Below are positions 2,361 to 20,097 of a stretch of DNA of 64,000 bases, piece after piece. The DNA comes from Lysinibacillus sp. FSL W8-0992 (GTDB taxonomy: Bacteria; Bacillota; Bacilli; Bacillales_A; Planococcaceae), in assembly GCF_038008685.1 (NCBI RefSeq), contig NZ_JBBOZQ010000001.1:124001-188000 (forward strand), read 5' to 3'. Each line of letters opens with the position of its first letter. The stretch's first letter is position 1. A program made the position numbers and the translations under genes. The notes under the pieces were generated by a model. It had not been told where the DNA came from and did no database searches. It saw only the letters and a list, made by a program, of their open reading frames with translations.

Positions 2361-3644
2361 CTATGCTTCTCTATCAAATTGTAGAATCATTTTATGCAAC
2401 GCTTCGGATTGTTTTTTCAAGTCTTGTGCAAGTTGTTCTACTTGTTCAATTGCATGTGCTTGCTCTTCTGTTGCACTGCTCACTTCTTGTGCACCAGCCG
2501 ATGTTTCTTGAGCAATGGCTGCTACTTCTTGTGATTGTCGAGCAGTTGTTTCAATATTGTGCATTTGTTTTTCAATTAATGAAGAAATCTCTACAATCGC
2601 GTTTGCCATTTCATGGACACTTGATGACATCCCTTCAACCGCAGTCGTAGTTTCAGAAACACGCGCTGCCTCTTTAGTCGCAAATGATACTTGTTGATTC
2701 ATTTGTTTCACAACAACTTCAACATTATGTTGCATTGATTGAATAAGAGTCGTAATTCCTTGTACAGCCTTTGCACTTTCATCGGCCAAGCCACGAACCT
2801 CTTCTGCCACAACCGCAAAGCCTTTGCCATGTTCTCCTGCACGGGCAGCTTCGATAGATGCATTTAATGCTAGTAAATTTGTTTGTGCCGCAATATCACC
2901 TACTAAACTAATGATACGCTCAACTTGTCCAGCATTGTCTTCTAATGTACGAATACTTTCTAGTGCTTCGTTGTTGCCAGCTGCAATTTGTTGAATGCTA
3001 TTGACTAACGTTTCAATCGCTTTTGTTGTATTAGTTAAATTATGTAAAATCTCTTTCGATTGTACTGCTGACTGTTCCGCTCTAGTATTCACTTCTGTTG
3101 CTAATGTGCGTACATCTTCAATCGCCTCTGCTGTATCTTGTACTGCTGTAGCTGAAGCTTCTGCTCCTGCGGAAATATGTTTTACCGTCACCGCAATACC
3201 GTCTGCTTTCTTTGTCGCAACAGCGGTTTCATCGGATAACTTGATAATCGATTGATTTGTTTGTTGAAAGTTTTGATCGATACTTTCTACCATGTGGCGT
3301 AAATTTAACACCATTTGTTGGAATGCTACTGCCACTGAACGAATCTCATCATTCGTTTTTGGCATCACTACATCCTCACCAATTTTTCCTTCTGCTACGC
3401 GTGTAGCAGAGTATTCAAGTCGCTGTAACGGCTTAATTAAAATAACGCTGAAAATTGCCGCTAAAATACCTGACCATATAATCCCTAATAAATAAGTAAT
3501 CACTTCAAATAGCTTACGATTAATTTCTGGGAAAAAAGTAGGTTGTATAAATTCAATGAATACAAAGCTGATACTATACGTGATCAGTGCAAGAATACTT
3601 ACAAATAATACTAGTTTAAGTCGTAAGCCAAACTGTTTTTTCAT
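2361..3644 (-). CDS. methyl-accepting chemotaxis protein with a minimal sensor region
   Basis: Chemoreceptor of 427 residues. Two hydrophobic segments (about residues 9-31 and 43-66) are separated by only about a dozen residues, so there is almost no extracellular ligand domain. A HAMP linker ([17 protein letters not shown]) follows, then a full cytoplasmic signalling coiled coil with the conserved tip [19 protein letters not shown], which couples to CheA/CheW. The ATG at 3642-3644 is chosen because GAGGGG precedes it; the in-frame TTG four codons upstream overlaps the ywlE stop region. It lies 8 bases after ywlE. The short outer loop suggests sensing of membrane state, energy or an internal signal; the ligand is unknown. 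Confidence 0.92.
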
Positions 3645-3652
3645 AGTGCCCC

Positions 3653-4093
3653 TCAATTCTTCTCAAGTATTTTAACTAACTGTTCTACTAATTTCTCTAG
3701 TTCTGTAAATGTTTCTTCATAAATAGCTTTATTTCCGCCGTAAGGGTCTACAACATTCTCTAAACTTCCTTCGTTCGCATATTCTTTCAGTGTAAAAACT
3801 TTTTTTTCTGTGTTCGGGTAGTAAGCGATAATAGTATCTCTGTGCGCTGTCGTCATTGTTAAAATTAAATCGGCCCACTCTATTTCAGCCATAGATAATT
3901 GTGTTGCTGAATGTTGATGTGTCATATTCGCTTCATTTAAAACTTGCTGCGCATGTGCTGACATTTCAGCGTTCGGCATTGCATAAATACCAGCAGAACG
4001 AACCTGAACATTGTTGATTTGCTTATGCTTTAAAATAACCTCTGCCATCGGACTGCGACAAGTATTTCCGGTACAAACAAATAATATATTCAC
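3653..4093 (-). CDS. ywlE: low-molecular-weight phosphatase, protein-arginine phosphatase YwlE
   Basis: A 146-residue member of the low-molecular-weight tyrosine phosphatase fold. The P-loop is [13 protein letters not shown] (CX5R) and the general-acid aspartate is in VDPYGGN. A threonine sits between Asn and Cys in the loop (CTGNTCR), the residue reported to give B. subtilis YwlE its preference for phospho-arginine, so it probably reverses McsB arginine phosphorylation. The open frame extends upstream over the neighbouring gene, but the GTG at 4091-4093 follows a strong AAGGAAGGTGAT site and gives the normal length. It is 17 bases after ywlD, in an operon-like arrangement. Confidence 0.93.
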
Positions 4094-4110
4094 ACTTATC
4101 ACCTTCCTTA

Positions 4111-4608
4111 TTATTTTCGGAGCGCTAAAATACTCATAATGATAAAAACAAATCCTGCAATAATTTGAATTTTGTTTCCAAAAAAAACCTGACTTCTGCG
4201 TGCTATAACTAAAGCCCCATATGCGCAAATGAAAGCACTCATTCCAGCACTAATAATAAAAATTGTTTTTTCTAAGTTAAGCATACCAAAAGAAACACTT
4301 ACTGAAAAGGTATCTAGGCTAGCAGTCACAGCTAATAATACAGGTGAAATGGTTATTTTCTCATTTTTGTTGGAAGACAAAAGTAAATGTAGACCAATGC
4401 TAAATAATAGAATACAGGAAATCCATTGACCCCAATCTAATAAAAAACGCACTAAGTAATTTCCTAATTCAAAGCCGAGTAGTGGAAAAAGCATATGTAA
4501 TGTTGCTGTCCACATTGACAAAAATAATCGATATTTAACATTTGGAATTAATACAAATAAACCGACGACATCGACAGACGTTAAAATACCTGCAAGAATA
4601 CCCTGCAA
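4111..4608 (-). CDS. ywlD: MntP/YwlD-like membrane protein, putative manganese efflux pump
   Basis: A 165-residue integral membrane protein with about six hydrophobic segments, built as two similar halves each with an aspartate-bearing segment (TSVDVVGLFV near residue 11 and TASLDTFSVSVSFG near residue 95). This layout is that of the MntP/YtaF cation-efflux families. Position next to ywlE and ywlC matches B. subtilis ywlD. The start is a TTG (4606-4608) preceded by AAGGAGTG. Manganese as substrate is inferred from the family only. Residues VDVVGLFV in the first half are less typical than in confirmed MntP proteins. Confidence 0.7.
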   Translation of the reverse strand: MQGILAGILTSVDVVGLFVLIPNVKYRLFLSMWTATLHMLFPLLGFELGNYLVRFLLDWGQWISCILLFSIGLHLLLSSNKNEKITISPVLLAVTASLDTFSVSVSFGMLNLEKTIFIISAGMSAFICAYGALVIARRSQVFFGNKIQIIAGFVFIIMSILALRK

Positions 4609-4742
4609 GAATGCACTCCTTCGCTTCCTAATATTTTATCATTTTATGCTCGGAAATACAGTATTATCATAATGAACGATAAGACATTTTCCATATTATA
4701 AAATCCTATTTTTAAATGATTAATAGAGAATTGTTTGTGACT

Positions 4743-10431: not shown

Positions 10432-11481
10432 TTAACCACGAACTTCGCGATAATCGTTATCTACTAATCCTATTTGTTTATTGCGCTCTTTAAATCGAAT
10501 ATTATGTGATGATACATACGCCACTTTTGGTGCATCTGGCTCTAAAAATAATTTTGCACTATTTAACGCTAAAATGCCATCCGTAAACGCACCTGCAATT
10601 AATCTTACTTTACTAGGATGATCGATAAAATCACCTGCTCCGTAGATGCCTTCTATATTGGTTTCACGCTTCTCATTGACGATAGCTACTCCATCTTGAA
10701 TTTCTAATCCCCATTCCTCAAGAGCTCCATAATCACATTTTAAGCCATGATTAACAACAACCGCATCTACTTGCACTCGTTCCATTTCATCTGTTTCTTT
10801 ATTCATAATTGACACATACTGTATTACATCACCATCACTATGTAATTGCACCACTTCGTATGGTGTTTTAACATTGACAGAGGATTCTCGCATACGTAAG
10901 ACATTTTTTTCATGACCACCAAATTCATCACGACGATGGACAATTGTTACACTAGCAGCGATAGATTCTAGCTCATTCGCCCAATCCACTGCGGAATTGC
11001 CACCACCTGAAATAAGTATATGTTTGTTGCGGAAAATGTCTAATTCTTGCACAGTATAATGTAAATTCGTTACTTCGTAGCGGTCTGCTCCTTCTATTTC
11101 AAGCTTTTGCATTGAAAGTACACCATAACCAACTGCTAATATTATTGCTTTAGAATAATGCTTCTCTCCTGATGCTGACGTTAAAATAAATGTTCCATCA
11201 CTCTGTTTTTCTAATTTTTCTATCTTTTGATTTAAAACAATTGTTGGATCAAACGTTTTTGCCTGTTGGATAAGTTGCTGAATTAACTCCTCACCTAATA
11301 TAGGCTTTACCCCACCAACGTCCCAAATCATTTTTTCAGGATAAATAAGCATGCGTCCACCTAGTTGAGAGCTAAATTCTATAATTTTCGTTTTTAAATC
11401 GCGCATCCCGCTATAAAAAGCTGTATATAATCCTGCTGGTCCACCTCCAACAATCGTTACATCATACAATTCTTCTGGCAT
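10432..11481 (-). CDS. thioredoxin-reductase-like ferredoxin--NADP+ reductase
   Basis: FAD/NADPH oxidoreductase of 349 residues related to B. subtilis YumC. FAD binding: [16 protein letters not shown] near the N-terminus and GIYGAGDF near residue 290. NADPH binding: [14 protein letters not shown] about residue 160. The CxxC of thioredoxin reductase is absent, which places it with type 2 ferredoxin-NADP reductases. The ATG at 11479-11481 has GGGGAG upstream; the frame extends 19 codons further without a site. A Fur-like box precedes it and it is the last gene of the siderophore block, so reduction of imported ferric siderophore, perhaps through ferredoxin, is a reasonable inference. Confidence 0.85.
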
Positions 11482-11538
11482 GTCGTTCTCCCCTTTTCTA
11501 CTAATAAAGTTTGCATGTCCTATTCTTCCTAAGAACAA

Positions 11539-11553
11539 TGATATTCATTCTCA
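11539..11553 (-). promoter_or_regulatory. Fur-box-like site before the reductase gene
   Basis: TGAGAATGAATATCA on the minus strand resembles the 7-1-7 Fur operator TGATAATNATTATCA with two mismatches. It lies about 60 bases upstream of the reductase ATG, in the gap after the permease gene. Confidence 0.6.
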
Positions 11554-11576: not shown

Positions 11577-12611
11577 TTATTCCTTTAATCGCGCTAATAA
11601 ATATAAAAAATATGGTGCCCCAAAAACGGCTACAACAATTCCAGCTGGTATTTCTGAAGGCTCTAAAATAGAGCGACCTATCGTATCGGCCAATAACACT
11701 AAAAAGCCACCTAAAAGTGCCGCAGTAGGAAGCATAAATTGATGGTTTGCTCCCACAAGTTGCCGAGCAAGATGTGGTGCAATTAATCCTACAAATCCAA
11801 TACCGCCACTAACAGAAACACTAGCTCCAGCCAATCCAACTGATGCAGCTAATAACCAACGACGTTCTTTTTCAATAGAAGCACCTAATCCAATCGATGT
11901 TATTTCGCCCAGATTTAATATGTTTAAAACTCGAGATTTTGAATAGATAAATGGTAGTAAAATTAATAACCATGGTAATAAGGATAGGACAAACCTCCAA
12001 TTCGAGCCCCAAATACTACCCGCTAGCCATGTAGCCACAAATTGATAATTTTCAGGGGTAAGACGAAGTGTTAATACAATCATTGCTGAACTAATGCCAG
12101 CGGCCACCGCAATTCCCGTTAAAATTAGACGCATTGGTGTGATACCTTCATAGCGTTTATAAGACAGTGTATAAATTAACAATGCTGTTATCCCTGCACC
12201 CAAAAAGGCTAGTACTGGCAGTAAATATACGGGTGCTGATTTAGTCGTTGAGAAAAAGGAAATATACAGCATTACAGCTAGCCCAGCACCCGCATTAATG
12301 CCTAAAATACCTGGATCTGCTAATGCATTTTTTGAAATGCCCTGTAAAACAGCACCTGCCATAGCTAAACCCATTCCTACTAAAACACCAATTACAATTC
12401 TAGGAAGCCTAAATTGAAATAATATTAATTGCTGTTGCGCATCGCCCTGCCCAAAAAGAGTACTTATTACTTCCCATGGTGTCAGTTTAATTACGCCAGT
12501 ATTCATACTAATTACAAAGGTAATTACTATTAAAACAATCAGTGTAGCTATTATGAGGAAATTTTTTCTTCTAACCTTTTGCTGATTTTGTGTTAAAAAA
12601 TTGTTACTCAC
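11577..12611 (-). CDS. FecCD-family iron-siderophore permease
   Basis: A 344-residue inner-membrane permease of the BtuC/FecCD/FhuG family. It has about ten hydrophobic helices and the family blocks FRLPRIVIGVLVG, GAVLQGISKNALADP and GFVGLIAPHLAR. It should form a heterodimer with the preceding permease and be driven by the downstream-encoded ATPase of this block. Its ATG overlaps the stop codon of that permease by 4 bases (ATGA), indicating coupled translation. Which siderophore is carried cannot be read from the sequence; relatives transport hydroxamate or citrate-hydroxamate siderophores. Confidence 0.9.
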   Translation of the reverse strand: MSNNFLTQNQQKVRRKNFLIIATLIVLIVITFVISMNTGVIKLTPWEVISTLFGQGDAQQQLILFQFRLPRIVIGVLVGMGLAMAGAVLQGISKNALADPGILGINAGAGLAVMLYISFFSTTKSAPVYLLPVLAFLGAGITALLIYTLSYKRYEGITPMRLILTGIAVAAGISSAMIVLTLRLTPENYQFVATWLAGSIWGSNWRFVLSLLPWLLILLPFIYSKSRVLNILNLGEITSIGLGASIEKERRWLLAASVGLAGASVSVSGGIGFVGLIAPHLARQLVGANHQFMLPTAALLGGFLVLLADTIGRSILEPSEIPAGIVVAVFGAPYFLYLLARLKE

Positions 12612-13660
12612 AGTTCCTTTCCTCCTTTACGTGCTAAATAAAGAAAGAACGGAACCCCAATTAAAGCAATTAATGCACCAATCGGCGTTTCATATGGCGG
12701 ATTAATAGTACGCGCAACTAAATCAGCTAGTACTACGAGTAATGCTCCATATACTAATGAACAAGAGATAATCCATCGATAATCGTGTCCAACTATGTAT
12801 CTCGTAAAATGGGGAACAATTAATCCTACAAATCCAACAGCACCTACAACTGAAACTGCTGCTCCTGCTAAAATTAAAACAATTACCATCCCCCACACTC
12901 GCACGACAGCAGTTCGTTGACCAAGTCCTATCGCAATTTCTTCACCTAAGCTTAACAACGTAATAGAGCGGGATAGTATAAGCGCACCTATCATCGCAAT
13001 TAGTATCCATGGCGATAATATTTGAAGATGACTCCACATCGTCCCCGAAACACCCCCAGCATACCAAAATGCTAGGTCTTGTCCAATTCGGTAATAAAGT
13101 GCAATTCCTTCACCGAGCGCACCAAGTAAAGCACTAACAGCAGCGCCAGCAAGAACTAGACGCATCGGTGATAAGCCCCCTTTAGACAAGGAGCCCACAC
13201 CATAGACAATCGCAACACCGAGGCCTGCACCTACAAACGACCATAAAATTAAAAACATATAGGGCATGCCAGGAAAAAAGGCAAAGCAAACAGCGAGCAT
13301 AAATGCCGCTCCAGAATTCAATCCTAATAACCCTGAGTCTGCTAAAGGGTTGCGCGTCATACCTTGCATTATCGCACCAGCAACTGCAAAGCTTGCACCT
13401 ACTAACGCTGCTCCAAGTACTCGTGGTAAACGAATATCATGAATAATTTGATGTGTTGTTAATTCTGGTGAAAATTGTGTAATTGCCGTCCAAACAGTAC
13501 TTAATGAAATATCTGCTGCTCCTAAAGAAATGGCAAAGCCAATGGCAAATATTAATGCAATTACTCCTAAAATCAAAGCTACTATTCCGCGTATTGGGTG
13601 AGATTGTTTCTGTAGCTCATCTATATCGCTGAGCCCTTCTACTCCTGTCGACGCAGTCAT
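12608..13660 (-). CDS. FecCD-family iron-siderophore permease (partner)
   Basis: A 350-residue permease of the same family, with the blocks IRLPRVLGAALVG, GAIMQGMTRNPLADSG and GFVGLIVPHFTRY and about ten transmembrane helices. A hydrophilic N-terminal stretch of about 24 residues precedes the first helix. The ATG at 13658-13660 has a strong GAGGAGG site. It follows the ATPase gene by 33 bases. The two permeases are clearly paralogous but divergent, as usual for siderophore importers with two different transmembrane subunits. Confidence 0.9.
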   Translation of the reverse strand: MTASTGVEGLSDIDELQKQSHPIRGIVALILGVIALIFAIGFAISLGAADISLSTVWTAITQFSPELTTHQIIHDIRLPRVLGAALVGASFAVAGAIMQGMTRNPLADSGLLGLNSGAAFMLAVCFAFFPGMPYMFLILWSFVGAGLGVAIVYGVGSLSKGGLSPMRLVLAGAAVSALLGALGEGIALYYRIGQDLAFWYAGGVSGTMWSHLQILSPWILIAMIGALILSRSITLLSLGEEIAIGLGQRTAVVRVWGMVIVLILAGAAVSVVGAVGFVGLIVPHFTRYIVGHDYRWIISCSLVYGALLVVLADLVARTINPPYETPIGALIALIGVPFFLYLARKGGKEL

Positions 13661-13693
13661 TCTACTTCCTCCTCTTAACTTCCATTCCTCCGC

Positions 13694-14488
13694 TTAATCT
13701 TTCATGTTGTATAGCTGATAAGATAGACAAATTGGATTTTTACTATATGGACAGACAGCCATTTCTGCGTTGATATTGAATACTGTTTGTAAATTCTCCT
13801 TTGTCATTACTTCATGAGGGCTGCCACTTACGATTAATTTTCCGTCTCGCATAGCCATCATAAAATGAGAAAACCGAGACGCATGGTTTAAATCATGCAA
13901 AACCATAATAATCGTTCGTCCTTCTTCCCTATTGAGCTTTTCAAGCAATAATAAAATATCTAGCTGATGTGCTAAATCTAAATATGTTGTCGGTTCATCC
14001 AGTACTAAAATATCCGTACCTTGAGCCAATGCCATCGCAATCCATACTCTTTGACGTTGACCACCTGACAATGCCTCAATTGGACGATCGCAAAACTCTC
14101 TTAGTCCTGTCACATCAATTGCCCAATGAATATATTCATAGTCTTCCTTGCGCAATGTACCGAACCCTCCTTGATGAGGGAAACGGCCATATGATATTAA
14201 TTCAAAAACAGTTAATCCTCCTGGAGCACTTGCTGTTTGAGGTAAAATTGCCATCTTTTTTGCCACTTCTTTTGTCTTTAATTGATGAATGGCCTTACCA
14301 TCTAAATAAACAGCACCATCTTGTGTTCGTAATACACGCGCAACAGCCTTTAATAAAGTAGATTTTCCACAGCCATTTGGGCCAATAATTGTTGAGATTT
14401 GACCTTTAGGAATGGCAACACTTAAATCATCCACAATAAGCGTCGAGGAGTAACCAATCGCCACATGTTCGATCTCCAATACTGACAT
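13694..14488 (-). CDS. siderophore ABC transporter ATP-binding protein
   Basis: A 264-residue ATPase of the FecE/FhuC/YusV group. Walker A is GPNGCGKST, the signature is LSGGQRQR, Walker B is DILVLDEPTTYLD, and the switch histidine is in VLHDLNHA. The start MSVLEIEH (14486-14488) has AAAGGAAG upstream; the open frame extends another 22 codons into the previous gene. Its C-terminal PYSKNPICLSYQ resembles the tail of YusV-type ATPases, which serve several siderophore importers. Gene order ATPase-permease-permease on one strand supports one importer. Confidence 0.92.
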   Translation of the reverse strand: MSVLEIEHVAIGYSSTLIVDDLSVAIPKGQISTIIGPNGCGKSTLLKAVARVLRTQDGAVYLDGKAIHQLKTKEVAKKMAILPQTASAPGGLTVFELISYGRFPHQGGFGTLRKEDYEYIHWAIDVTGLREFCDRPIEALSGGQRQRVWIAMALAQGTDILVLDEPTTYLDLAHQLDILLLLEKLNREEGRTIIMVLHDLNHASRFSHFMMAMRDGKLIVSGSPHEVMTKENLQTVFNINAEMAVCPYSKNPICLSYQLYNMKD

Positions 14489-14507
14489 ACAAAACTTCCT
14501 TTCATTT

Positions 14508-16232
14508 TTATATTTGCAAACCAAATTGTGCTGTGTACAAACCGTAATAGGCATTTTTCATAGCCATTAATTGTTCATGTGTTCCTTCTTCTATAATTCC
14601 CTTTTTCGATACGACGACAATGCGGTCTGCATCCTTTATTGTCGCCAAGCGGTGTGCAATGACTAACGTTGTGCGTCCTTTGGAAAGTTCATGTAAAGCT
14701 TGCTGAATAGCCTGTTCTGTTTCTGTATCTAAAGCGGATGTTGCCTCATCCAAAATTAAAATTTTAGGATTTTTCAAGAAAATACGTGCTATAGATAATC
14801 GCTGTTTCTGTCCACCTGATAATTTCACGCCGCGTTCACCAATTAACGTATCCATACCATCTGGTAATGCTTGTATCATCTCTTCAAGCTGTGCTCGTTT
14901 TGCCGCATACCAAATATCTTCATCACTCGCCTGTAAATCTCCGTATGCAATGTTTTCTCGAATCGTACCATCAAATAAAAAAACATCCTGTTGCACAATG
15001 CCGATATGTGAGCGTAATGAATGAAGCTTAAAGTCTCGTATATCTATTCCATCAACTTTTATTGATCCTTCACTCACCTCATAAAAGCGTGGGAGTAAAC
15101 TACAAATGGTCGATTTCCCCGCTCCAGATGGACCAACAAGTGCTACTGTTTCTCCAGACTGAACTGTAAGATTAATATTATTTAATGTTCGTTCTGTATC
15201 GGTATAACCAAATGAAACTTGGTTAAATGTAATATTGCCATCAATAGACTCTATTAGCTTAGCTTTTGGGCGGTCTGCAATTTCTGGAGCTGTTTCTAAA
15301 AAATCAATATAGCGTTTAAAACCAGCCATGCCCTTTGGATAACTCTCAATAAACATATTTATTTTGTTAATTGGTCCAATTAAAATGCCAGATAAAAGAA
15401 TAAAAGCAATAAATTCACCATTCGTTAAATAGCCCTTTAAAACAAAGTATGCTCCGACAAATAGCGTAAATAATGATAAAACCTTTGTTAATATGCCATA
15501 AAGAGCTTCATTCCATGCCATCACCTTATAAGAAAACAATTTTGTTGCGCGGAATTTTTCATTATTCTTTTTGAAGCGGTTCTTTTCATGATCTTCATTT
15601 GTAAATGCTTGTACTACTCGAATACCACTGACGTTATTTTCTACACGGGCATTAAAGTCTGCAATATCGCTAAACATTTGATGAAATGCTTTCGACATAA
15701 GCTTGCCAAAAATAATAGTTAGCAAAAGAATAATTGGTACAAGAATAAAGATTAATAGCGTAAATGTAGGATCAATATAAAACATGACGCAAAAAGATCC
15801 GATTATCGTCATCATTGCAATAAACATATCTTCTGGACCATGATGTGCAAGCTCACCGATGTCCATTAGATCATTTGTTAATCGTGAGACAAGATGGCCT
15901 GTTTTATTGTTATCAAAGTAGCGGAAAGAGAGCTTTTGAATATGATTGAACGCTTCCCTTCTCATATCCGTTTCAATATTGATGCCAAGCATATGCCCCC
16001 AATACGAAACAATAAAATCTAAAATTGAATTAAAAACATACAACAACAGCAGCAAACCACTTGCCATCATTATCCACTTTAATTCACCATCTGGAAGAAT
16101 ATCATCAATTACTTTATTTAAAACTAATGGAAATGCCAGCTCAATTAGGGCAACTAAAATTGCACAGGAGAAATCTAATATAAATAATCCTTTATATGGC
16201 CTGTAATAAGTAAAGAAACGTTGTAGTAACAT
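14508..16232 (-). CDS. ABC exporter half-transporter (membrane domain fused to ATPase)
   Basis: A 574-residue protein with an N-terminal six-helix membrane domain (about residues 1-310, including the SFRYFDNNKTGHLVSRLTND block) and a C-terminal ATPase (Walker A GPSGAGKST near residue 370, signature LSGGQKQR, Walker B ILILDEATSALD, H-loop IAHRLATI). One gene only, so it probably works as a homodimer. It sits inside the iron block, 20 bases before the siderophore ATPase, so export of a siderophore or recycling of its empty form is possible. Drug or lipid export cannot be excluded. ATG follows TAGGAGG. Confidence 0.85.
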   Translation of the reverse strand: MLLQRFFTYYRPYKGLFILDFSCAILVALIELAFPLVLNKVIDDILPDGELKWIMMASGLLLLLYVFNSILDFIVSYWGHMLGINIETDMRREAFNHIQKLSFRYFDNNKTGHLVSRLTNDLMDIGELAHHGPEDMFIAMMTIIGSFCVMFYIDPTFTLLIFILVPIILLLTIIFGKLMSKAFHQMFSDIADFNARVENNVSGIRVVQAFTNEDHEKNRFKKNNEKFRATKLFSYKVMAWNEALYGILTKVLSLFTLFVGAYFVLKGYLTNGEFIAFILLSGILIGPINKINMFIESYPKGMAGFKRYIDFLETAPEIADRPKAKLIESIDGNITFNQVSFGYTDTERTLNNINLTVQSGETVALVGPSGAGKSTICSLLPRFYEVSEGSIKVDGIDIRDFKLHSLRSHIGIVQQDVFLFDGTIRENIAYGDLQASDEDIWYAAKRAQLEEMIQALPDGMDTLIGERGVKLSGGQKQRLSIARIFLKNPKILILDEATSALDTETEQAIQQALHELSKGRTTLVIAHRLATIKDADRIVVVSKKGIIEEGTHEQLMAMKNAYYGLYTAQFGLQI

Positions 16233-16269
16233 GGATGTACCTCCTAGTAAACATGCATTGTTGATGCTC

Positions 16270-16307
16270 TATTAAACGAAAGCTACCTAATTGCAAATCA
16301 GGTAGCT
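16270..16307 (-). terminator. hairpin between binding-protein gene and exporter gene
   Basis: AGCTACCT and AGGTAGCT form an 8-bp stem with an 11-base loop, followed on the minus strand by TTTCGTTT. It may terminate or reduce read-through from the binding-protein gene into the exporter gene. Confidence 0.6.
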
Positions 16308-16337
16308 CACCTCATGTGTTCTCCACATTTCTACTTT

Positions 16338-18245
16338 TTATTTTTCCTGAGACTTTGTATACTCTACTATTTTGTCAGCTAAATCTTCTGCTTGATGTAG
16401 TCCAGATAAAGGATCGGAAGCAAAATAGTATTCCGCTTCTAAAGGAATTGTTTTATTATTTTTGACAACATCAAGATTTGTCCAAGTTGGAGGGAGTTTC
16501 CCGTCTTTATTAAAGAAATTAATAACGAAGACGTAATCACCAACATAGTCACCGACTACTTCATAGGAGATTTCATAGCGCCCGCCATTTGATTCCTTTG
16601 TATCAAGTAGCTCCTGAATTTTTTCTTGTGGTTTTACACCAAGAATTTGATAAAGTGCTCGTCCACCTGACACACTGGAATTTCCAACAACAGTTGCATT
16701 TTTTTCAAATAAATCAAAAATCGTAAAAGTAGCACCTTCTGGAATAGCCGCATTTATTTTTTGTTGTGCTTGCGTTACACGATTTTCAAAATCTTTGACA
16801 AATGCGTCTGCTTCTTCCTGTCTTCCTAAAAATTCGCCCATTGCTTTGACTTCATCAGTAGCTGAATTATAGGCTGTATCAGAAAAAACGATTGTCGGTG
16901 CAATTTTTTCATATTTTTCAACATCTTCTGGATTCCATGTAATGATTAAATCTGGCTTTAATTCTAAAATCTTTTCTAATGATGCATTACCGTCTGTTCC
17001 GACATTCGTAATTTCTCCGTCTTTATAGTACGGTTTTAAAAATGCTGCATAGTTTAAATTGGCTGTGATTGCTCCTACTGGCACAACATCCAATGCAAGG
17101 ATTTGTCCCATATACCAGTCTGTCACAATACGCTGTGCTTTTACTGGAATTTCTACTTCTCGGCCACTGTCGTCCGTAATAGTTTTAGTCTCTGCTTCTT
17201 CTGTTTTAGGTACACTATCATTATTTTCAGCTGGTTGTTTTGTATCCTCACCACATGCTGCTAGTAAAACTAACAAACTTAGCAAAAAGGGCGTCTTTAT
17301 ATGTTTAAGCATTTTTTTCATCATGACTTCATTTTCCCCAATCTTAAATCGTTTTGCTTGCTCGAGCTGATTCTTATTGTATTGAAAATGATTCTCATTT
17401 GTAATAGCAATTTCGGACATAGCGGCTGTATATTTCAGCCTAAAAATAGTTGGCGCCATACTTGTCTCCTTTTTAAAGGCTCTACTAAAATAGTATTCAT
17501 CTTCATATCCAAGAGAAATAGCGATTTCTTTAATGTCATATTGATTGGCCATTAAATATTGTTTTGCGCGTTTAATTTTGAGTTGCTGCAAATAAATTTG
17601 TGGCCCTATTCCATAACGAGCTTTAAAAATGCGTAATAAATGTCGTGTACTAATTTGAAGTGAATCTGCTAGCGTTTGTATTGATAACGGCTCATGAATA
17701 TGTTCTTCTAAAAATAAACGTGCTAATTCTACCTTATCCATTTCATGTGGTTTACCTTGCCCTTCAGCAAGCTCTTGAAACACACGATAAATGAGCTCAT
17801 AAAAGGATGCTTTTACAAATACATGCTCATGAATAGAACCTGTCTGCCACTTGTTAAACATGTCGTGCAACAACTTTTGTATCACAATAGGATTAGCAGG
17901 TACACATGAGAACTCTGTTTGAAAAGGTTGATATTGCATTTGTAAATGTTGCATAAATGCATCAACATAAATGACGTCGCCTTTATAGTGAATTAAAAAA
18001 TAATTTAAAGGCTTTTTTGATTTTATATGTAGTGTTTGGGACTTTCCAATATGAAAAATGCTAAATTGTTGCACATGATAAGGATTATTTCCAATAATAA
18101 TTTCTGCTTCACCAACTGTGATGATTAATAACGAACTGTAATTCATTACTTCTTTTTTTTGCACCTCGTTGTTAAATACATATTCAATGTGTTTTACCTT
18201 GATATGTGCATTTTCCCATAGAAGCATGTAGGCATCATAATTCAT
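16338..18245 (-). CDS. AraC regulator continuous in frame with a siderophore-binding lipoprotein
   Basis: One open frame of 635 codons. Residues 1 to about 274 form an AraC-type regulator: N-terminal sensing region, then two helix-turn-helix motifs (SIQTLADSLQISTRHLLRIF and IKEIAISLGYEDEYYFSRAF). Residues 308-635 are a complete 328-residue siderophore-binding protein with its own start (ATG 17322-17324), a lysine-rich signal peptide and a lipobox LAAC (Cys331). Residues 275-307 look like translated spacer DNA and include a Fur box and a sigma-A-type promoter. B. subtilis Btr (YbbB) is a known AraC/binding-protein fusion but has no signal peptide in the middle. The two parts are probably two proteins, or a recent fusion. 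The main ATG has GAGGAGAA. Confidence 0.85.
   Translation of the reverse strand: MNYDAYMLLWENAHIKVKHIEYVFNNEVQKKEVMNYSSLLIITVGEAEIIIGNNPYHVQQFSIFHIGKSQTLHIKSKKPLNYFLIHYKGDVIYVDAFMQHLQMQYQPFQTEFSCVPANPIVIQKLLHDMFNKWQTGSIHEHVFVKASFYELIYRVFQELAEGQGKPHEMDKVELARLFLEEHIHEPLSIQTLADSLQISTRHLLRIFKARYGIGPQIYLQQLKIKRAKQYLMANQYDIKEIAISLGYEDEYYFSRAFKKETSMAPTIFRLKYTAAMSEIAITNENHFQYNKNQLEQAKRFKIGENEVMMKKMLKHIKTPFLLSLLVLLAACGEDTKQPAENNDSVPKTEEAETKTITDDSGREVEIPVKAQRIVTDWYMGQILALDVVPVGAITANLNYAAFLKPYYKDGEITNVGTDGNASLEKILELKPDLIITWNPEDVEKYEKIAPTIVFSDTAYNSATDEVKAMGEFLGRQEEADAFVKDFENRVTQAQQKINAAIPEGATFTIFDLFEKNATVVGNSSVSGGRALYQILGVKPQEKIQELLDTKESNGGRYEISYEVVGDYVGDYVFVINFFNKDGKLPPTWTNLDVVKNNKTIPLEAEYYFASDPLSGLHQAEDLADKIVEYTKSQEK
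17376..17404 (-). promoter_or_regulatory. internal promoter with Fur box ahead of the binding-protein part
   Basis: On the minus strand TTACAA (17399-17404), a 17-base spacer and TACAAT (17376-17381). The spacer contains TGAGAATCATTTTCA (17383-17397), a 7-1-7 Fur box with two mismatches. It ends about 50 bases before the ATG at 17322-17324, which has GGGGA upstream. This would give the binding protein its own iron-controlled transcript. Confidence 0.6.
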
Positions 18246-18284
18246 TGCGTTCTCCTCAACTAATAAGACATACCATCATTATAT

Positions 18285-18299
18285 TGATAATGATTATCA
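18285..18299 (-). promoter_or_regulatory. perfect Fur box upstream of the AraC/binding-protein gene
   Basis: TGATAATGATTATCA is the exact 7-1-7 Fur operator. A TATAAT (18278-18283) abuts it on the gene side, so bound Fur would cover the promoter. It lies about 40 bases upstream of the ATG. Confidence 0.85.
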
Positions 18300-18329
18300 A
18301 TTTCATTATACTTTTTAGAGCGCAAGAAA

Positions 18330-18805
18330 AAAACACCAATTACTATTATTAGTTAATGGTGTCAGAGTAGGGATAAACTTGCTTCGTTGATTTCCGCTAC
18401 AGGCGAACGCTTTCCACGGGCACACACGTAAGCCGCAAGAGTCGCTACGCGCGGTCTGTTGCGGCTTACGTTTTGTGCGTTCCCGCAAGAGTCGTCCGCT
18501 TCCGCTCCAATCAACTAGTAAAATTGTTTGAGTGCCTGGTACCTCCCATGGCGGAAATTAACGGCAGTAATCAAAACGAAAACACCATTAACTATTACTA
18601 GTCAATGGTGTCAGAGTAGGGATAAACTTGCTTCGTTGATTTCCGCTACGGTCGGACGCTTTCCGCGGGCACACCGTAAGCCGCAAGAGTCGTCTCCGCT
18701 CCAATCAACTAGTAAAATTGTTTGAGTGCCTGGCACCTCTCATGGCGGAAATTAACGGCAGTAATCAAAACGAAAACACCATTAACTATTACTAGTCAAT
18801 GGTGT
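18330..18805. repeat. tandem palindromic repeats plus three copies of a terminator-like hairpin
   Basis: A 249-base unit (terminator-like AACACCA..TGGTGT hairpin, a GTAAGCCGCAA palindrome, a GTGCCTGGTAC tag at 18525-18542, and a tail ending GTAATCAAAACG) is followed by a second unit of 194 bases (tag at 18719-18736) and then by a third hairpin. The second unit has lost about 55 bases, the right arm of the palindrome. The loss lies between two copies of CGCAAGAGTCG (18434-18444 and 18484-18494 in unit 1), as expected for slippage or recombination at short repeats. Confidence 0.85.
18775..18805 (-). terminator. rho gene terminator hairpin
   Basis: ACACCATT and AATGGTGT form the stem, followed on the minus strand by TTTTCGTTTTG. 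It lies about 10 bases past the rho stop. Near-identical hairpins recur at about 18592 and 18332. Confidence 0.75.
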
Positions 18806-18813
18806 CTGCATTT

Positions 18814-20097
18814 TTAAAGTAGCCCTTTACCTTTAGTGGCCTTTTTCATATCTTCATTTAACTTTTCGAAAAATTCTTCGTTTGATTTTGTTGTGCGTAT
18901 TTTTTTCAAGAAACGCTCTGCAAAATCTGGTGCATCTGAAAATGTTTTGCGAATTGCCCATAGTTTTTCAAGTTGTTCTGGTTCAAGAAGTAATTCTTCC
19001 TTACGTGTACCTGAACGACGAATATCAAGCGCAGGGAAAATACGACGCTCTGCTAGTTGTCGATCTAAGTGCAACTCTAAGTTACCAGTCCCTTTAAATT
19101 CCTCATAGATTACTTCATCCATACGTGATCCAGTATCTACTAAAGCTGTAGCTAAAATTGTTAAGCTACCACCTTCTTCGATATTACGAGCAGAACCGAA
19201 GAATCGTTTTGGTCTATGGAAGGCTGCAGGGTCAATACCACCTGAAAGCGTACGACCGCTCGGTGGAATAACTAAGTTATACGCACGTGCAAGACGCGTA
19301 ATAGAGTCCATTAAAATAATAACGTCACGTTTATGTTCTACTAAACGGCGAGCTCGTTCTAACACGATTTCCGCTACCTTAACATGATTTTCTGGTACTT
19401 CATCGAACGTAGAACTCACGACATCCGCATTAACAGAACGCTCAATGTCCGTTACTTCCTCAGGGCGCTCATCAATAAGTAAGACGATTAACTCAGCCTC
19501 AGGGTGATTCGTTGTAATGGCATTGGCAATTTCTTTAAGTAAAGATGTTTTACCGGCTTTTGGAGGCGCGACGATTAAACCACGTTGACCAAATCCTACT
19601 GGTGCTACTAAATCCATAATTCGTGTTGATAGATTGCTCTGTGTTGTTTCAAGCTTAATTTGACGATCAGGATATAACGGCGTTAATGCTGGGAAGTGAA
19701 CACGTTCTTTTGCTACTTCAGGGTCTTCTCCATTTACAGCATCAACCTGTAGTAAGCCATAGTAACGTTCATTTTCTTTAGGTGGGCGTACTTTGCCAGA
19801 CACCTTATCCCCATTACGAAGATCGAAACGACGAATTTGAGAAGCTGAAATATAAATATCTTCTTTACTCGGTGAGTAATTTATTGGACGAAGGAAGCCG
19901 AAGCCCTCTTGCGAAACAATTTCAAGTACCCCTTCCATAAAGAAATAACCCTCTTGTTCTGAACGCGTTTTCAAAATAGCAAAAATTAATTCCTTTTTCG
20001 TTAGTTTGCTATAATACGAAATTTTGTATTGGCGTGCGAGGGCGTAAAGCTCTTTTAACGTCATGTTTTCTAATTGAGCGATTGTCAATGCAGACAT
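18814..20097 (-). CDS. rho: transcription termination factor Rho
   Basis: Hexameric RNA-dependent ATPase that ends transcription of untranslated RNA. The 427 residues equal the B. subtilis length. An N-terminal helical domain is followed by the RNA-binding OSB fold (about residues 50-120, [17 protein letters not shown]), Walker [12 protein letters not shown], Walker [14 protein letters not shown], and the Q/R-loop region ([15 protein letters not shown]). The ATG at 20095-20097 (MSALTIAQ) with GGAG upstream is preferred over an in-frame ATG 12 codons earlier. glpX lies upstream on the same strand, as in B. subtilis. Confidence 0.96.

Follow-up and report, generated by a model that had tools for sequence, protein, structure and literature searches.

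A single open reading frame appears to yield two proteins in soil bacteria, by way of a putative iron-controlled promoter that lies inside the coding sequence, and the arrangement appears to be widespread among relatives. The frame joins an AraC-type regulator to a FhuD-like siderophore-binding lipoprotein and was found in a 64,000-nucleotide stretch of Lysinibacillus sp. FSL W8-0992, the whole of which is referred to below as the window. Our preferred reading, to which we assign a probability of roughly 0.7, is one frame with two promoters and two products, in which the regulator probably switches on a promoter that lies within its own gene. Comparative sequence analysis establishes the frame, its domains, their family-wide conservation, the DNA-level signals, and the operon.

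Frame, domains, and predicted lipoprotein

The frame runs on the minus strand from an ATG at 18245 to a stop at 16338 and comprises 635 codons. The end coordinate of 18299 given in the initial annotation includes an upstream Fur box, and the frame itself begins at 18245. It is divided as follows.

16338..18245, minus strand: single frame of 635 codons, made up of AraC regulator, linker, signal peptide with lipobox, and FhuD-like siderophore-binding domain
17430..18245, minus strand: AraC half, about residues 1-272, with HTH_18 at 192-269
17325..17429, minus strand: linker, a predicted dual-coded regulatory region, about residues 273-307, of low AlphaFold confidence
16338..17324, minus strand: predicted free lipoprotein, a 328-aa precursor starting at Met308
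17253..17264, minus strand: lipobox LAAC (L328-A-A-C331)

The AraC half matches Pfam HTH_18 at residues 192-269 (E 6.9e-21), and the second half matches Peripla_BP_2 at residues 386-602 (E 8.1e-20; 71.7 bits versus a curated cutoff of 27.5). The latter is closest to FhuD2/FhuD, both by sequence (PDB 4fna, E 1.6e-30) and by Foldseek (5fly, E 9.4e-17), and its ligand is probably a ferric hydroxamate. The signal peptide, which was called in the window from pattern and hydropathy without a signal-peptide predictor, begins at Met308/309 and ends in LAAC331. M308 is identical in all 14 aligned members, and basic residues precede the hydrophobic core in the window and its orthologs. The Pfam matches, Met308, and LAAC331 confirm the initial annotation of an AraC protein followed, within the same 635 codons, by a binding protein with its own start, signal peptide, and lipobox. 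In the AlphaFold model, residues 1-270 have pLDDT values of 74-93 in 10-residue blocks and residues 273-350 fall below 50; the model thus gives no indication that structural constraint conserves the linker. The pTM of 0.41 for the full fusion is uninformative on domain packing.

An open frame across the Bacilli

The fused frame is the prevailing state among relatives. In a genus sample, 20 of 32 genomes contained a match with E no higher than 1e-60, and 18 of them hold a full-length ortholog. All 18 frames are open, namely, that of the window and 17 others at 69-91% identity to it. One further genome (G012) gave matches at 30-32% identity only. A decayed ortholog in another (G026; L142, 6445-7110) retains AraC fragments and a perfect upstream Fur box, followed by an exporter gene; the SBP was not found at that locus.

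When a class sample of 398 genomes was searched with the ortholog alignment, 53 had a match, and at least 40 of the 398 hold a long fused frame without stops, distributed over 10 genera and five families (three best candidates were scored per genome, and the figure of 40 comes from a reading of the results table). Because alignment-based searches favor fusions, the AraC half alone was used as a profile in 23 genomes chosen for having hits. At 155 bits or more this profile gave 87 matches, 83 of them in open frames of 588-742 aa, as judged by length and not inspected singly. The four others lie in G072 (369 aa, split), G026 (decayed), G549:C34 (302 aa, partial), and G383 (297 aa, partial). Below 155 bits, AraC matches fall partly in frames of about 270-310 aa and partly in shorter long frames (528-606 aa). 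The architecture is common to Paenibacillus, Cohnella, Brevibacillus, and Neobacillus.

The initial annotation had suggested that the fusion was still forming, through disappearance of the araC stop. With 18 of 18 orthologs open, 83 of 87 AraC matches in frames of fused length, and several Bacilli families represented, this suggestion is not borne out, and a read error is rejected on the first two of these counts. A stop at the junction in relatives, with a read error in the window, was looked for and found in none of the 18 orthologs. In the wider set of junctions described below, which was selected for open frames, neither the lack of a stop in all 143 junctions nor whole-codon length differences upstream of the internal start were counted as evidence.

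Several other arrangements occur in the family. At L144 (G072) and at L145, in the window's own genome (C1, about 1.05 Mb), araC and the SBP are split into a gene pair with Fur boxes between the two; such pairs may represent an ancestral or a re-split state. One locus (L131; G065:C279:9000-21000) is a tandem array of AraC-SBP fusion genes, with matches at 11695, 13698, 15590, and 17545 and an SBP-only match at 10552, and tandem pairs of such genes are also present in several Lysinibacillus genomes. At L052 and L053, the linker and SBP resemble those of the window and the AraC half is much more diverged (28% identity in L052), which suggests that the AraC halves were swapped at the junction. 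A plasmid search matched 1087 records, none of which had one place covering 80% of the query.

Survey of junctions

HMMs of both halves, run over the retrieved loci, identified 167 distinct fused frames. In 12 of these the halves abut or overlap (Btr-like fusions, plus fragments), and the remaining frames represent 143 distinct junctions, in which a gap of 59-113 residues separates the halves; the frame is 560 aa or longer for 139 of these. A lipobox of the strict pattern is present in 132 of the 143 junctions, and in 138 when T or A at -3 is counted by eye (L115, L117, L121, L122, L127, and L129). The best 13-residue mean hydropathy exceeds 2 in 140 of the 143. Five junctions lack a lipobox: L186, L204, and L206 have no comparable hydrophobic signal, and L036 and L037 have a degraded hydrophobic segment minus the Cys.

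A second retrieval, from a named genome collection that partly overlaps the first genome set, added 34 new junctions from Paenibacillus, Cohnella, Brevibacillus, and Neobacillus. All 34 have a lipobox and a Fur box of at least 11/14 in the same reading phase. It also yielded 11 direct or short-gap fusions. The Paenibacillus members L275-L278 and L297, with a gap of 24-25 residues, are intermediate between the nested and abutting classes. At L050, a divergent HTH-SBP fusion with abutting halves (3489-4655, a 389-residue frame) adjoins a fusion of the nested type.

Predicted control signals within the coding sequence

The linker of the window contains the following putative start signals.

17399..17404, minus strand: -35 of predicted internal promoter P2, TTACAA, identical across the 18-ortholog alignment
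17383..17397, minus strand: internal Fur box TGAGAATCATTTTCA, 12/14, inside the P2 spacer
17376..17381, minus strand: -10 of predicted internal promoter P2, TACAAT, from pattern and alignment
17332..17342, minus strand: Shine-Dalgarno-like GGGGA region before the internal start, from the sequence

A TTACAA-17-TACAAT promoter with a Fur box in its spacer had been annotated between the two domains and is indeed present at 17404-17376. A plain promoter scan of 14400-18900 returned 17 promoter-like sites versus 17.8 in shuffles and did not single out P2; such a scan does not decide whether P2 is a chance promoter, and comparative tests argue against chance.

Among the 18 orthologs, synonymous codon identity reaches 0.985 in 12-codon windows over residues 281-293, compared with an average of 0.621 beyond the junction (sd 0.065, maximum 0.859). 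Of the 143 junctions, 126 contain a Fur box scoring 12/14 or better, a score attained by none of the 1230 control windows (150 nt each) taken from these ORFs. At a threshold of 11/14 the number rises to 139, with L036, L178, L204, and L206 falling below it. The reading phase of the box is identical in 142 of the 143, usually read D-N-H-Y-Q. Hexamers at the exact -35 and -10 places around the Fur box score a mean of 7.4 of 12 versus 3.6 at control positions in the same ORFs, and scores of at least 9 of 12 are reached in 16 of 57 cases versus 42 of 30269 controls. The Shine-Dalgarno score ahead of the first internal Met averages 5.19 of 7 (n=57) versus 3.47 for 769 other Mets, and an in-frame Met lies between Fur box and hydrophobic core in each of the 139 junctions whose Fur box scores at least 11/14. 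By these comparisons, the linker DNA carries signals beyond protein coding and is under non-coding selection.

A second Fur-controlled promoter is predicted at the start of the frame. P1 consists of ATGAAA (18306-18301) and TATAAT (18283-18278) separated by 17 bp, and its spacer contains a 14/14 Fur box. From 200 nt upstream of the open frame to 100 nt inside it, a Fur box of at least 12/14 is present in 113 of 136 cases.

A 22-bp direct repeat upstream of P2

AraC proteins usually bind direct repeats separated by roughly two turns of the helix. Upstream of P2, 37 of 57 representatives have a direct repeat (6/7 or better) spaced 22 bp, versus 4.0 (sd 1.9) after codon shuffling, and no other spacing between 14 and 33 exceeds 10 of 57. 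Stricter redundancy removal leaves the 22-bp repeat in 28 of 39 linkers, with other spacings from 16 to 29 at 8 or fewer. Elsewhere in these ORFs, windows show the repeat in 1-9 of 56-57 cases when the spacing is 22 and in no more than 13 when it is 20-24, and in 20 new linkers from named genomes the 22-bp repeat occurs in 10 and other spacings in at most 6. Since 22 is not a multiple of 3 and the copies are read in different frames, the repeat is a DNA feature and not a protein repeat. It most likely serves as the operator for the AraC half, and it is the one hint that the fusion would activate import genes on binding a ferric siderophore. Both the repeat and the extent of the family go beyond the initial annotation. 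The candidate half-sites in the window are as follows.

17433..17440, minus strand: candidate AraC operator half-site 1, GGCTGAAA, within the last codons of the AraC half
17411..17418, minus strand: candidate AraC operator half-site 2, GTCCGAAA, with its start 14 nt ahead of the -35

These half-sites match at 6 of 8 positions at 22-bp spacing, which is weaker than in L072 or L148 (8/8). Twenty of the 57 representatives fall below 6/7, and other Lysinibacillus-type genes score 5-7. The distance from the best repeat to the -35 ranges from 11 to 95 nt, most commonly 32 and 35, unlike one fixed geometry. The motif TCCATTG taken alone is modestly enriched (32 of 57 versus 10.7 shuffled), at a varying distance. 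P1 has no excess of 22-bp repeats (7 of 45, similar to other spacings), and a candidate AraC operator there was dropped for this reason.

Operon context and members without a signal peptide

The frame heads a set of genes on the same strand.

18285..18299, minus strand: Fur box of P1, upstream of araC, perfect 14/14
14508..16232, minus strand: ABC exporter-like ATPase/permease, the next gene, 574 aa, named from sequence reading
13694..14554, minus strand: FhuC/FecE-like ATPase, named from sequence reading
12608..13660, minus strand: FhuB-like permease, named from sequence reading
11577..12611, minus strand: FhuG-like permease, named from sequence reading
11539..11553, minus strand: Fur box between fhuG and the reductase gene, 12/14
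10432..11538, minus strand: ferredoxin-NADP reductase type 2-like protein, named from sequence reading, with relatives in other loci

The operon thus contains importer genes (FhuC-, FhuB-, and FhuG-like, 11577-14554) on the strand of the frame. Fur boxes of at least 12/14 number three in the 64-kb window versus 0.7 expected, and all three lie within this operon. The exporter-type ABC protein (14508-16232) is situated within a siderophore uptake operon and has the same position in L138, L139, L141, and L146. Upstream of the gene, at 18330-18700 of the window, are two near-identical stretches around gtgtcagagtagggataaacttgcttcgttgatttccgcta, with terminator-like hairpins close by.

Members that lack the signal peptide (L186/L319, L204/L317, and L206/L318, from genomes G284, G549, and G320) stay fused, with both domains recognizable. 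At each of these loci (L317-L319), an independent SBP gene with a lipobox intervenes between fusion and fhuBG, and no SBP gene was found in that interval in the signal-peptide-bearing L321, L329, L330, L141, or the window. An SBP gene at this position in the signal-less members would be predicted if the importer ordinarily relies on the nested lipoprotein while the fusion performs a distinct task. This comparison covered homologs, at E 1e-4, of proteins encoded in the window, and with L335 set aside, no fhuBG relative was found in 12 of 19 neighborhood stretches (L320, L322-L328, L331-L333, and L336). Two genomes, G020 (L146) and G065 (L334), have an additional SBP downstream of fhuG. In the Lysinibacillus members L036 and L037 (G014 and G022; operons L139 and L138), the lipobox Cys is lost and a Lys lies in the hydrophobic core, and no other SBP was found in either operon. 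This loss without replacement counts against a two-product reading, as do the additional SBP genes of G020 and G065, the neighborhoods in which no fhuBG relative was found, and the split pairs at L144 and L145.

Proposed mechanism and alternative explanations

In the mechanism that we favor, P1, with a Fur box in its spacer, would drive the full-length fusion of AraC and lipoprotein, which would act as a one-component siderophore sensor in the manner of Btr. P2, likewise with a Fur box in its spacer, would give a shorter mRNA from the linker onward, including the downstream genes, on which Met308 would start the free lipoprotein. That lipoprotein would act as binding protein for FhuBGC, the importer whose genes lie downstream. 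Fur would close both promoters when iron is plentiful, and the sensor, with a ferric siderophore in its own binding domain, would activate P2 through contact of its AraC half with the 22-bp repeat. As the specificity domain is encoded once, sensor and importer would share it. The proposal in the initial annotation that one frame has two outputs is well supported at the sequence level, and it is from sites in the sequence that we infer P2 activity, binding by Fur and AraC, and the two proteins; the fusion-in-progress part of that proposal did not hold. The soluble fusion sensor suggested there is no more than a possibility, given the internal signal peptide of the fusion. The fusion would be either cytosolic, as Btr is, or membrane spanning with the binding domain outside, with or without lipobox cleavage. 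By the criterion of a single membrane helix, a hydrophobic segment is present in the fusion, but it doubles as the lipoprotein signal.

A variant of this explanation, which we regard as a real possibility short of even odds, makes the full-length fusion a transmembrane sensor anchored by the internal signal sequence, with AraC inside and the binding domain outside. Signal peptidase II would perhaps later cut at the lipobox, leaving a tethered regulator and a surface lipoprotein, and P2 would only boost the lipoprotein. The hydrophobic core (140 of 143 junctions), the lipobox (138 of 143), and the preceding basic residues in the window and its orthologs are consistent with this variant, and the low-confidence linker model is what might be expected of a flexible tether. 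However, the free lipoprotein needs a signal peptide anyway, so its retention is no proof of use in the fusion, and the members that have lost the signal peptide are still fused. Less likely than not is a combination of the two, in which the regulator would bind an operator inside its own gene and the fusion would at the same time span the membrane as a siderophore sensor, open to cleavage by signal peptidase II at its internal lipobox. In such a self-targeting nested gene, one coding sequence would match the specificity of sensor, receptor, and importer.

The remaining explanations each discard one product or the age of the fusion. If only the separate products mattered, the frame would be open by accident of shared descent and its read-through product would be functionless. 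The split pairs at L144 and L145 are compatible with this, but 83 of 87 AraC matches lie in frames of fused length, and the other two frames of the surveyed junctions average 2.5 and 6.2 stops (in a set selected for open frames). Fusions without a signal peptide also keep both domains recognizable, and we consider the explanation improbable. Conversely, the fusion alone might matter, with P2 unused and the lipobox a relic, as the three members that keep the fusion minus the signal peptide, two of them also minus a recognizable Fur box, would allow. Its chances are slim given that the Fur box, promoter, Shine-Dalgarno sequence, and start codon are conserved at the DNA level, that the lipobox is kept in 138 of 143 junctions, and that several operons have no other SBP. 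No support was found for a read error or for a fusion that arose recently when the araC stop codon was lost. The 18 open orthologs and the fused frames in at least 40 of 398 class genomes, 10 genera, and five families leave this explanation with virtually no probability.

Relation to known systems

Within the portions of the literature available, the closest described regulator to the window's fusion is Btr.

Btr (YbbB) of Bacillus subtilis is reportedly an AraC/FeuA-like one-component regulator, in work attributed to Gaballa and Helmann in 2007. The two share a layout in which an AraC half is followed by a siderophore-binding domain on one chain, beside ferric siderophore import genes. The window family differs in its gap of 59-113 residues with a predicted Fur-controlled promoter, internal start, signal peptide, and lipobox. 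Btr is not known to have a signal peptide between its domains, whereas the fusion in the window has one at residues 308-331. Direct fusions with abutting halves occur in the same survey (L189, L191-L194, and L197-L199). Against the NCBIfam model for Btr (NF049932), the window's fusion scores 75.6 bits versus a cutoff of 900, with the best stretch in the AraC half (residues 33-271).

The second half resembles FhuD2/FhuD (PDB 4fna, 4b8y, and 5fly) in sequence and fold and has a Gram-positive-type signal peptide and lipobox; FhuD2/FhuD is encoded by a separate gene, whereas here the domain is in frame with a regulator. As described in the accessible text on in-frame N-terminal proteoforms (PMC11005335), an internal start can give a second protein with a different location, as is proposed here. 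To such cases the present family adds a predicted promoter with a Fur box and a probable operator, both embedded in coding sequence and conserved from family to family. If the signal sequence anchors the fusion, its topology would be like that of the ToxR kind of transmembrane transcription regulators, in so far as the available text covers them (PMC10269533). The present fusion differs from that kind in its AraC-type DNA-binding domain and lipobox, and the word AraC does not occur in the main text of PMC10269533.

The ortholog in Lysinibacillus sphaericus 2362 (L031/L237) starts at 4354697 of the chromosome. In the accessible part of PMC5467902, its P1 Fur box is listed in Table 3 at 4354641-4354655, and the gene is listed as encoding a hypothetical protein that has domains for Fe3+-hydroxamate transport. 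The internal Fur box is missing from Table 3 as far as the table is shown. In the literature searched, much of it available in part and with most subscription journals outside it, no AraC-SBP fusion with an internal lipobox or promoter was reported.

Implications

If the two-product reading is true, one coding sequence is used twice, as a sensor domain and as a transport receptor, and induction and import would be matched to the same siderophore. The control region, which likely consists of AraC operator, Fur box, promoter, and ribosome site, would then sit within protein-coding sequence. At such loci, annotation can leave the receptor of an importer hidden, as may be the case for the L. sphaericus ortholog in the accessible part of PMC5467902. 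Because split, nested, and signal-less forms coexist in the family, the origin of Btr-like fusion sensors becomes directly testable.
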